Source: Arcobacter sp. F2176 (GTDB lineage Bacteria > Campylobacterota > Campylobacteria > Campylobacterales > Arcobacteraceae). Taken from it: a stretch of DNA of 64,000 nt. Below, piece after piece: positions 44,741 to 48,904 of the stretch (position 1 is its first letter; every line of letters starts with the position of its first letter). The stretch covers positions 186,001 through 250,000 of the forward strand of contig NZ_PDJV01000004.1 in assembly GCF_004116465.1 (NCBI RefSeq). Direction: 5' to 3'. The notes below the pieces were generated by a model that saw only the letters and a program-made list of their open reading frames with translations, was not told the origin of the DNA and searched no databases. Both the position numbers and the translations under genes were made by a program.

Positions 44741-45064
44741 TTAACCAATCAACCTCTGAAACAAAATATCTTCTAAATTTTGTCTTGAATCAACTACTAA
44801 TAAAATATAAACTGTTTGGCTTTCTATTTTATAAATGATTCTCCATCGTTTGTGAATAACTTCTCTGTATTTTGAAATACCAATTTCATTGAGTTCTGGT
44901 ACTATTCTGTTTCGTTCAGGAAAATAATAGAGCTTAGCACACTCTTCTTTTATTTCAAAGAATACTTTTTTTGCTATATTTACACTATCTGTTTTGATAT
45001 ATTCTATTATGTTTAAAAGGTCGTTTTGGGCGATTTTTGTCCATTGTACTTCGTAGTTTTTCAT
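44741..45064 (-). CDS. ParE/RelE-family toxin
   Basis: A 107-residue toxin: WTKIAQNDLLNIIEYIKTDSVNIAKK, FPERNRIVPEL, KYREVIHKRWRIIYKIESQTVYILLVVDSRQNLEDIL. This is the ParE/RelE fold, with the basic patch RWRIIYKI. ParE members poison gyrase, while RelE members cut mRNA; the sequence looks nearer ParE. Its ATG directly follows the antitoxin stop codon. No mobile element was found nearby. Confidence 0.88.
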   Translation of the reverse strand: MKNYEVQWTKIAQNDLLNIIEYIKTDSVNIAKKVFFEIKEECAKLYYFPERNRIVPELNEIGISKYREVIHKRWRIIYKIESQTVYILLVVDSRQNLEDILFQRLIG

Positions 45065-45337
45065 TTAGTTGAATAGTTTATTTTCTAAATTGTTAAACAT
45101 TTCATCTTGTTTTATTAGGTTTTTGTTTTCTATATCTTTTTCACTTAGAATTATTAGTTTTAATAAGTTGATTGAATTTTGCATATTTTCATAGCTTTTT
45201 ATATCTTGCACCACAGCTTTTGCTTCGCCATTTTGCGTAATTATAACAGTTCTTTTATTTTCATTGACACCATTGATTACATCAGCTGTTTTAGACTTTA
45301 GAAAACTTATTGGTTTTATATCTTGGCTTAAATACAT
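45065..45337 (-). CDS. Phd/YefM-family antitoxin
   Basis: A 90-residue antitoxin. The N-terminal Phd/YefM DNA-binding fold reads IKPISFLKSKTADVINGVNENKRTVIITQNGEAKAVVQDIKSYE, and the C-terminal toxin-binding helix is acidic and Asn-rich. First gene of the pair. Likely autorepresses through the palindrome at 45364-45388, 27 bases upstream. Confidence 0.88.
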   Translation of the reverse strand: MYLSQDIKPISFLKSKTADVINGVNENKRTVIITQNGEAKAVVQDIKSYENMQNSINLLKLIILSEKDIENKNLIKQDEMFNNLENKLFN

Positions 45338-46787: not shown

Positions 46788-46930
46788 ATTTATTCCATAA
46801 ATTTATTTTAGTATATCATATTTGTCTTGGCATTATTATTTCTTACTTATTAAATAAAAATTAAATTTAACTATTAACACAAAATTAACAGATATACATA
46901 ATAATACATTATAAAAATAAGGAGAGAGTA

Positions 46931-48904
46931 TTGAAAAAGTCTATATGTCTGTTAAGTATTGTTGCTTCAACAGTTTTATTAGGGAATGAAGTTGAAGTAC
47001 CAACAGTAAATGTTCTAGAAAAGATAAATACAAAAGTAGTTAAAGATATAAGTGAAGATCAACTAAAATCGGCTGATTTAGCGGAAGCTTTAAGTAAAAA
47101 TGTACCTTCAATATCAATTGTAAGAAGAAATGGAATTGCAAATGATATTATCTTAAGAGGACAAAAGAAAGATAATATCAATGTATTAATAGATGATGCA
47201 AAGATATATGGAGCTTGTCCTAATAGAATGGATCCCGTAACATCACATATATTAACAAATAATGTAGAAAGTGTAGAAGTAATAGAAGGTCCATATGATA
47301 TTGAGAACTTTGGAACATTAAGTGGAAAAGTACAAGTACATACAAAAGAACCAACAAAAGATTTACAAGGTGAAATCAATCTAAATGCAGGAAGCTTTAA
47401 TTATAGAAAAGCAAGTGCAACTATAAGTGGAGGAACAGATAGATTTAAATTATTACTTTCAGCTTCAACTGAAAAAAGTGACCAATATAAAGATGGAAAT
47501 GGTAATAATTTTTACGAACAGCAAGTTGAAAAAGGTGTTCCTTCTACAACACGTTATAAAGATTCTAATGAAAAAGCATATACTAAAAAAACACTATTAT
47601 CTAAACTAATTTTTAATATAGATGATAGTTCAGAAGTAAAACTTTCATATACGGCAAACAGAAGCGATAATGTATTATATCCAGCTGGTGGAATGGATGC
47701 CGATTATGATGATTCAAATATTTATACTATTGGGTATACAAAAAGAGATTTAGGTAAGTATTCAAAAGAGTTGAATTTGGATTATTATTACTCAGATGTT
47801 GACCATCCTATGAGTACTAAATTAAGAAATCCTACTATGATGTATATGACAAGTCACATGAAAACATCAATTTGGGGAACAAAAATAAAAAATAGTATGG
47901 AACTTGCTGATTCAATTTTAACAGTTGGATTAGATACAAGTGTTAGAAACTGGAGAAGTAATAATTATCAAACATCAATTACAACAGGGAATATTACACC
48001 AACTGCTGATTCTTTTCCATCAACAGATACTACAAATAAAGCAATATTTGCAAAATTAGAGAAAGATTTTGGTAAATTAAATTTAGACTTTGGTTCAAGA
48101 TATGACCATACAAATATTGAGCCAGATGGTAATACAAAAAATGAAAGAAAATACAATGCACTAAGTGCAAATGTTTTTGCTGTTTATAATCAAGATGAAT
48201 CTACTAAGTATTTTGCTGGAATTGGTAAATCTTCTAGAGTTCCAGATGCAAGAGAACTTTATTTTTCTGGAATGGGTTCAAAAGGAAATCAAGACTTAAA
48301 ACAAACAAAAAACTATGAAGCTGATATTGGTTTTGAAAAAACAATAGGTAATTTCAATATTAAATCGAAACTTTTTTATTCTGTGTTAAAAGATTATATT
48401 TATAACAATTCTACAAGTAAAAAGTTTGAAAATGTTGATGCTAAAATTTATGGTGCAGAAATAAGCGGTTTTTATCTATTTGGTGACTCTTTTTCAGCAG
48501 ATTATGGAATTGCTTATCAAAGGGGTAAAAAAGATGAAGCACTAGATGGTCAAACAAATAAAAACTTAGCAGAAATTCCTCCTTTAAAAGCTAATATAGC
48601 TTTAAACTATGAGTATTCAATTCATAAACTAACAGCAGAAATGGTAGCTGTTGATAACTGGAATAAAGTTGATACTGACAATGGGGAACAGAAGTTAGGT
48701 GGATATGCTCTTTTTAACTTAAAATATAAAAATAGCATAAGTAAAAATTTTGAAATAACTTTAGGTGTTGATAATGTATTTGATAAAACTTATGCTTCAA
48801 CAAATACTTATAAAGATATTTCATATACAGTTGTAGGTGGAAACCAAATTACTTTTAATGATCCAGGAAGATATGGATATATTAATTTAAGATATAAATT
48901 CTAA
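46931..48904 (+). CDS. TonB-dependent outer-membrane receptor, OprC/NosA-like (copper)
   Basis: A 657-residue TonB receptor. It has a signal peptide (about 1-18), a plug domain with DIILRGQKKDNINVLIDDA, a 22-strand-type barrel, and a terminal aromatic YINLRYKF. The plug has YGACPNRMDP: C96 and M100 give the CxxxM pattern. VDHPMSTKLRN gives HxM at H292/M294. Together these match the copper site described for Pseudomonas OprC. It starts at TTG 46931 behind GGAGAG. It stands alone, with no TonB or Fur site recognised nearby. Copper is an inference from the motif; heme or siderophore uptake is less likely. Confidence 0.9.
   Translation: MKKSICLLSIVASTVLLGNEVEVPTVNVLEKINTKVVKDISEDQLKSADLAEALSKNVPSISIVRRNGIANDIILRGQKKDNINVLIDDAKIYGACPNRMDPVTSHILTNNVESVEVIEGPYDIENFGTLSGKVQVHTKEPTKDLQGEINLNAGSFNYRKASATISGGTDRFKLLLSASTEKSDQYKDGNGNNFYEQQVEKGVPSTTRYKDSNEKAYTKKTLLSKLIFNIDDSSEVKLSYTANRSDNVLYPAGGMDADYDDSNIYTIGYTKRDLGKYSKELNLDYYYSDVDHPMSTKLRNPTMMYMTSHMKTSIWGTKIKNSMELADSILTVGLDTSVRNWRSNNYQTSITTGNITPTADSFPSTDTTNKAIFAKLEKDFGKLNLDFGSRYDHTNIEPDGNTKNERKYNALSANVFAVYNQDESTKYFAGIGKSSRVPDARELYFSGMGSKGNQDLKQTKNYEADIGFEKTIGNFNIKSKLFYSVLKDYIYNNSTSKKFENVDAKIYGAEISGFYLFGDSFSADYGIAYQRGKKDEALDGQTNKNLAEIPPLKANIALNYEYSIHKLTAEMVAVDNWNKVDTDNGEQKLGGYALFNLKYKNSISKNFEITLGVDNVFDKTYASTNTYKDISYTVVGGNQITFNDPGRYGYINLRYKF

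Follow-up and report, generated by a model that had tools for sequence, protein, structure and literature searches.

A probable route for copper across the outer membrane of Campylobacterota

The question raised by this locus, a 64,000-nucleotide stretch of DNA analysed as a whole (the window), is whether one of its genes encodes an outer-membrane importer of copper. Campylobacterota need copper for their cbb3 oxidase and, in many cases, also for N2O reductase, an enzyme that removes a greenhouse gas. To our knowledge, how copper crosses the Gram-negative outer membrane has been worked out in only a few cases. No report of an OprC-type receptor in Campylobacterota, or of the promoter repeat TTAACA-N5-TTAACA described here, was found in the open-licence literature, and term searches of PMC10092412 and PMC6682613 found nothing on either.

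The receptor gene and its putative copper ligands

The protein encoded by the reading frame (Table 1) matched PF07715 and PF00593 above the Pfam cut-offs and thus has the plug and barrel of a TonB-dependent receptor. The closest solved structure by sequence was OprC of Pseudomonas aeruginosa (6fok; E 1.5e-35). The eight residues GACPNRMD are identical in the two proteins, and DHPM of the receptor aligned with DHIM of OprC. In a 37-sequence alignment, CxxxM in the plug and HxM in the barrel fell at OprC positions 143, 147, 323 and 325, as in the OprC/NosA type. These residues (C143, M147, H323 and M325) are reported as copper ligands of OprC in the excerpted text of PMC8610252. An earlier note on this DNA had assigned C96, M100, H292 and M294 to the frame 46931-48904, and each was confirmed at its residue and codon. 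Its further claim, that the CxxxM-HxM set of Pseudomonas OprC is reproduced here, was borne out by the exact column match.

Table 1. Features of the receptor gene and its promoter region (window positions)
Feature	Position	Strand	Basis or remark
Operator candidate TTAACACAAAATTAACA (TTAACA-N5-TTAACA)	46874..46890	+	Direct repeat conserved upstream of orthologues
TAATAAT, -10-like	46899..46905	+	Just 3' of the repeat; by eye, relatives have similar AT-rich stretches at a comparable distance
AGGAGAG, ribosome-binding-site-like	46920..46926	+	By position and sequence
OprC-type TonB-dependent receptor	46931..48904	+	657 aa, TTG start; Plug and TonB_dep_Rec_b-barrel above Pfam cut-off
Possible TonB box, residues 24-30 (PTVNVLE)	47000..47020	+	By eye, from position and a 25-sequence alignment
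C96, plug ligand (OprC C143)	47216..47218 (TGT)	+	37-sequence alignment; C in 80/80 relatives
M100, plug ligand (OprC M147)	47228..47230 (ATG)	+	37-sequence alignment; M in 80/80 relatives
M255 (OprC M286)	47693..47695	+	37-sequence alignment; M in 80/80 relatives
H292, barrel ligand (OprC H323)	47804..47806 (CAT)	+	37-sequence alignment; H in 80/80 relatives
M294, barrel ligand (OprC M325)	47810..47812 (ATG)	+	37-sequence alignment; M in 80/80 relatives
M303, M304, M306, M310 after HxM, possible methionine track	47837..47860	+	M positions in the translation

The five aligned residues C96, M100, M255, H292 and M294 showed no change in any of the 80 named relatives, the most distant of which was 46% identical, and they were likewise invariant in the 25- and 53-sequence alignments. 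Record titles of the 80 relatives name Arcobacter, Aliarcobacter, Poseidonibacter, Sulfurospirillum, Sulfurovum, Sulfurimonas, Sulfuricurvum and others, and the set includes gammaproteobacterial bins, such as Sedimenticola and Thiodiazotropha. Both copper motifs were absent from the four other TonB-receptor hits (L002-L005) of the window's genome. Judged from sequence, the four-ligand match to OprC is far beyond chance.

Regarding the position of the motifs, the earlier note had placed CPNRM in the plug, which stood, and DHPM in an extracellular loop, which did not: in the AlphaFold2 model, H292 and M294 lie at the end of the barrel strand 278-295. The OprC HxM pair is placed on the 'barrel wall' in PMC8610252 (excerpt).

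OprC M286, the counterpart of M255, is described in the same excerpt as a silver ligand of a methionine track. The other loop methionines of the receptor varied among the 80 relatives. Among the four methionines that follow HxM, M306 was the sole one aligned with a track methionine of OprC (M343), and it is not conserved, since only 31 of the 80 relatives have methionine there. 'Met348', named for OprC in the excerpt of PMC8610252, was left out because this residue is D in the OprC sequence rebuilt from the alignment. A conserved methionine track was considered for window-type receptors and rejected, M255 alone being kept across the 80 relatives.

Fold and phylogenetic placement

The AlphaFold2 model of the receptor, built from a 53-sequence alignment, had a mean pLDDT of 87.2 and a pTM of 0.87. 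In a Foldseek search with this model, OprC entries took ranks 1-28 with full-length matches. VIA-align gave a Z of 39.9 against OprC (rmsd 2.5 Å, 590 residues, about 24% identity), followed by ChuA as the next best fold (Z 37.4), and the ZnuD fold was likewise shared. Superposition on OprC, together with the residue mapping, suggests that the four ligands would meet at one site in the model.

The receptor scored 223.3 bits on TIGR01778, the NCBIfam TonB-copper equivalog (cut-off 472.45), and was also below the cut-offs of TIGR01783 for siderophore receptors (104.7 vs 223.5 bits), the haemoglobin receptor model (121.1 vs 323.75 bits) and NF038289 for ZnuD zinc receptors (40.4 vs 950 bits). The siderophore and haemoglobin matches, weak as they are, and the ChuA fold would speak for a receptor of iron, siderophore or heme in which the copper motif is incidental. 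This reading is very improbable, given that these scores are all below their cut-offs, that OprC is best by both sequence and fold, that the ligands never vary, and that the promoter element is shared with PCuAC. Silver is bound by OprC at the same site (PMC8610252, excerpt) and ZnuD has the same fold, both of which would suit another soft metal or silver as the natural substrate, or a general metal scavenger; with copper chaperones, NosL-like proteins and NosZ as the linked genes, we find such a substrate range barely credible.

In a 37-protein tree, the window type (type B) formed one clade (support 100/100) beside, and not inside, the clade that holds OprC. The latter also takes in receptors of a second kind found in Campylobacterota (type A) and three relatives without the motifs. 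Therefore, on its 223 bits and separate clade, the window protein is best called a new variant beside OprC and not a member of TIGR01778. It resembles OprC in its plug-and-barrel architecture, its four ligands and the aligned M255/M286 pair, and differs from OprC in its low identity, its sister clade, the few track methionines that it keeps and a promoter element of its own.

Type A receptors are closer to OprC, carry CGGRM or CGMRM together with DHVM or DHIM and, when full-length, score about 360-730 bits on TIGR01778. They share the same four ligands with the window type and, unlike it, group with OprC.

On the OprC/type A side of the tree, the TonB receptors of L166, L168 and L170 lacked both copper motifs, possibly because the copper site was lost and the ligand changed.

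Distribution in Campylobacterota

A search of 397 Campylobacterota genomes returned 177 with a receptor match at E 1e-20 or better. Window-type receptors were called at E 1.6e-47 or better in 139 of the 177, the other 38 having weaker matches only. These 139 genomes fall in eight family codes (f1, f4, f7-f11 and f13), f1 being the family of the window.

Type A and type B genes adjoin on one strand in G297 and G346 (L184 3975-8216 and L186 4935-9176), where the type A copy has its own exact promoter repeat; the coordinates of G323 (C22:139547-143772) indicate the same arrangement. The window-type receptor occurs as a tandem pair in G122 (L185 3805-7781), G377 (C1:876187-880213) and L080. An exact repeat precedes the first copy in G122 and only 9 of 12 positions the second (L007); in L080, the repeat stands before both copies. 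The window-type receptor in L105 lies on a contig titled Helicobacter pylori PMSS1 isolate MiH-14oct19-106, apparently a mislabelled metagenome bin.

Gene neighbourhood and NosZ

No copper gene was found as a direct neighbour of the window receptor, whose neighbours include an endonuclease III-like gene (HhH-GPD) and, by eye, an HD-domain-like gene. Elsewhere in the window (44741-45337), adjoining reading frames for a 107-aa ParE/RelE-like and a 90-aa Phd-like protein look by eye like a toxin-antitoxin pair. Across loci L006-L155, where neighbour families were confirmed by profile for representatives, the gene immediately upstream of the receptor, in the same orientation, was TonB-like in 24 loci, ExbB and ExbD were further upstream in seven loci each, and a NosL-like gene lay within three genes of the receptor in nine.

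The order TonB, receptor, nosZ, further nos genes was present in four genomes of one genus code, g58 (G219, G221, G225 and G264). In G221, TonB, NosZ (862 bits, above cut-off), NosD and a NapH-type protein were confirmed by NCBIfam; for the remainder of that run and for G219, G225 and G264, assignments were made by eye and with the NosZ search. Direct linkage of nosZ to the receptor was thus seen in 4 of 36 genomes with both on one contig, and in three more the two were at most 26 kb apart. The window's own genome has NosZ on a different contig. NosA of Pseudomonas stutzeri is described in the excerpt of PMC8610252 as an orthologue of OprC with a proposed role in providing N2O reductase with copper, and it belongs on the OprC side because it is reported there as about 60% identical to OprC. 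Compared by description, the resemblance to NosA lies in the four nos-linked loci, where the receptor stands directly before nosZ. Unlike the NosA case, 23 of the 36 receptor-bearing f1 genomes are without NosZ.

NosZ was present in the other 13 of these 36 genomes versus 6 of the 7 receptor-free f1 genomes, and phylum-wide in 70 of the 139 receptor genomes; family f3 has NosZ in 46 genomes and the window-type receptor in none. These counts leave out ten weak partial NosZ matches at E above 1e-40. A role dedicated to NosZ was rejected as a general rule, as NosZ presence does not track receptor presence.

A promoter repeat shared with TonB and PCuAC genes

Within the 64-kb window, TTAACACAAAATTAACA was the sole exact match to the repeat, with 0.08 expected by chance. 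At least 11 of the 12 repeat positions were found upstream of the receptor in 25 of 30 f1 loci, compared with about 1% of shuffles. In the rest of Campylobacterota, the same level was reached before 92 of 101 receptor genes versus 8 of 689 other genes of the same loci; the 101 genes are not independent, since loci L036-L072 and L076-L155 overlap partly (e.g. L050/L121 and L049/L153). A 5-base spacer was found in 91 of 100, and other spacers in 0-7 of 100. Before the gammaproteobacterial members of the clade, the repeat was found in 0 of 13 receptors. Type A receptors of Arcobacteraceae had the exact repeat in 3 of 3 loci examined, in contrast to ten type A loci of families f2, f3 and f6, which showed no repeat (10 or fewer of 12 positions).

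The repeat was also assessed before other genes. PCuAC was found in 21 of 51 f1 genomes, with the repeat at 11 or 12 positions before 19 of the 21. TonB was preceded by it in 15 of 30 cases, NosL-like genes in 5 of 14 and ExbB in 2 of 11. For a separate ExbB set, taken as the 550 bases or fewer that follow the regulator pair, where sometimes another gene comes next, 28 of 30 loci were usable and 9 of these 28 stretches had 11 or 12 positions. No repeat was found before nosZ in six stretches, own genome included (8 or 9 of 12 positions).

The window genome (3.27 Mb) contained 8 exact repeats versus 4 for the reversed control, and the regulon is therefore small. Of the 8 copies, one stands before the receptor, one before an ExbB-ExbD-TonB operon and one before a PCuAC-163 aa-SCO1 operon, the last about 4 kb to the left of the window. 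The ExbB-ExbD-TonB operon follows a gene pair for a response regulator and a kinase; in Aliarcobacter butzleri, an exbB-exbD-tonB operon was read as iron-related from the transcriptome (PMC9927503, excerpt). The PCuAC-163 aa-SCO1 operon is like cj0909-0911 of Campylobacter jejuni in gene content and order. With cj0908-0911 deleted, cbb3 oxidase activity fell in that species, and the defect of the cj0911 mutant was partly relieved by copper (PMC8267372, excerpt). Unlike the window gene, cj0908-0911 encodes chaperones (PCuAC and Sco1) and not a receptor, and neither TonB nor OprC is mentioned in the main text of PMC8267372. The suggestion of the earlier note that the clients are copper oxidases or N2O reductase gained support, with the repeat common to the PCuAC-SCO1 operon and the receptor heading a nos run in four genomes.

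The remaining copies in the window genome stand before metH, a flagellin-like gene and an unknown 182-aa gene, or have no start within reach. The first three are at G000 C9:9336, C9:116289 and C24:18484, respectively, and have counterparts in G122, matched by downstream gene or identical repeat. An exact repeat at G000 C1:349611 (L195 7611) has no notable same-strand gene start within about 850 bases and recurs in G122 with identical letters; it could mark a small RNA or a short peptide.

In G299, G241 and G310, the copy of the repeat that lies behind the kinase stands before other TonB receptors, whose nearest models are siderophore or B12 (below cut-off). Repeat-preceded TonB receptors behind a regulator-kinase pair were seen in L282 (2340-7460), L283 (11021-17648) and L284 (6230-12518), each adjoining a membrane protein, which in L282 is Fer4_5; ExbB-ExbD-TonB follow in L282 and L283. 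In three genomes, a DsbD_2-like membrane protein is encoded about 170-190 bases downstream of the repeat (L285 7586, L282 8211 and L284 2979), and a relative of this protein also follows the receptor in L065, L066, L068 and L072. Because the repeat also precedes siderophore- or B12-like receptors, metH and the flagellin-like gene, the regulon may be wider than copper.

Siderophore-type TonB receptors behind the same repeat would favour the reading that the window receptor imports a copper chelate or chalkophore instead of bare copper ions, in the manner of CrtA or MbnT. Receptors for chelated copper exist: CrtA/BfrG of Bordetella pertussis is a TonB-dependent copper importer tied to haem-copper oxidases (PMC12914433, excerpt). 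By description in that excerpt, however, it forms a sequence cluster distinct from OprC and has a different binding site, for chelated copper, while the four OprC ligands for bare copper are invariant in the window type (80/80). Import of a chelate is accordingly improbable.

The candidate regulator

The linked response regulator is of the OmpR type (PF00072 and PF00486), and relatives 47-68% identical to it lie near receptors in Arcobacteraceae and Sulfurovum loci. In f1, it was present in 36 of 36 receptor genomes versus 3 of 7 receptor-free genomes (Fisher p 0.0003, kinship uncorrected). Among the 95 genomes listed with the regulator, none belonged to families f2, f3, f5 or f6. That this regulator binds and controls the repeat is suggested by the family it belongs to, by where it lies and by the 11-base period of the repeat.

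As regards regulation only, the repeat might instead be bound by another regulator, with the sharing of genes reflecting, for example, oxygen or respiration control. Such control would fit the respiratory nature of PCuAC-SCO1, NosL and NosZ, the repeat before metH and the flagellin-like gene in the window genome, and the three Arcobacteraceae genomes that have the regulator but no receptor. Against this, the few exact copies point to a small regulon, a set that combines the receptor, TonB/ExbBD and the two OprC lineages suggests metal import, and regulator and receptor co-occur, often adjacent. We regard another regulator as a real possibility, short of even odds.

Discussion

The copper-receptor reading of the earlier note was supported by sequence, fold match, fixed ligands, genome context and the shared promoter element, and we put the probability that the receptor is an outer-membrane copper importer working like OprC at roughly 0.87. 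Sequence, residue conservation, fold match, gene order, and the promoter element with its sharing were observed directly. From these we infer that copper is the ligand and is transported, that chaperones relay it, which regulator acts, and that the signal is copper shortage.

The proposed mechanism would run as follows. Copper would be caught by a Cys-Met-His-Met site formed by C96 and M100 on the plug and H292 and M294 on the barrel wall. The TonB-ExbBD complex would then pull the plug, and copper would be freed into the periplasm, where the chaperones PCuAC and SCO1, with a NosL-like protein in some lineages, would hand it to cbb3 oxidase; the same relay would also supply NosZ where present. 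Transcription would start from the TTAACA-N5-TTAACA promoter, most likely bound by the OmpR-family response regulator, whose gene pair with the kinase adjoins either the receptor or ExbBD-TonB, so that the set would constitute a copper-supply regulon.

At about even odds, this arrangement may extend to many Campylobacterota: an OmpR-type two-component system acting at TTAACA-N5-TTAACA would, on copper scarcity, switch on two OprC lineages, TonB-ExbBD, PCuAC-SCO1, NosL-like and DsbD_2-type proteins, and thereby serve cbb3 oxidase, as well as N2O reductase in those genomes that have it. The window type would then be the ancestral outer-membrane copper gate, shared with sulfur-oxidising Gammaproteobacteria, which have it without the repeat.

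That copper chaperones share the promoter element of the receptor is a new and directly testable result, as is the element itself. An annotation fix can also be offered, because the NCBI TonB-copper model misses the window-type clade at its cut-off. Given the invariant predicted copper site of the receptor, and the short promoter element that ties the receptor to chaperones, copper acquisition in Campylobacterota, which has been little studied, becomes testable.
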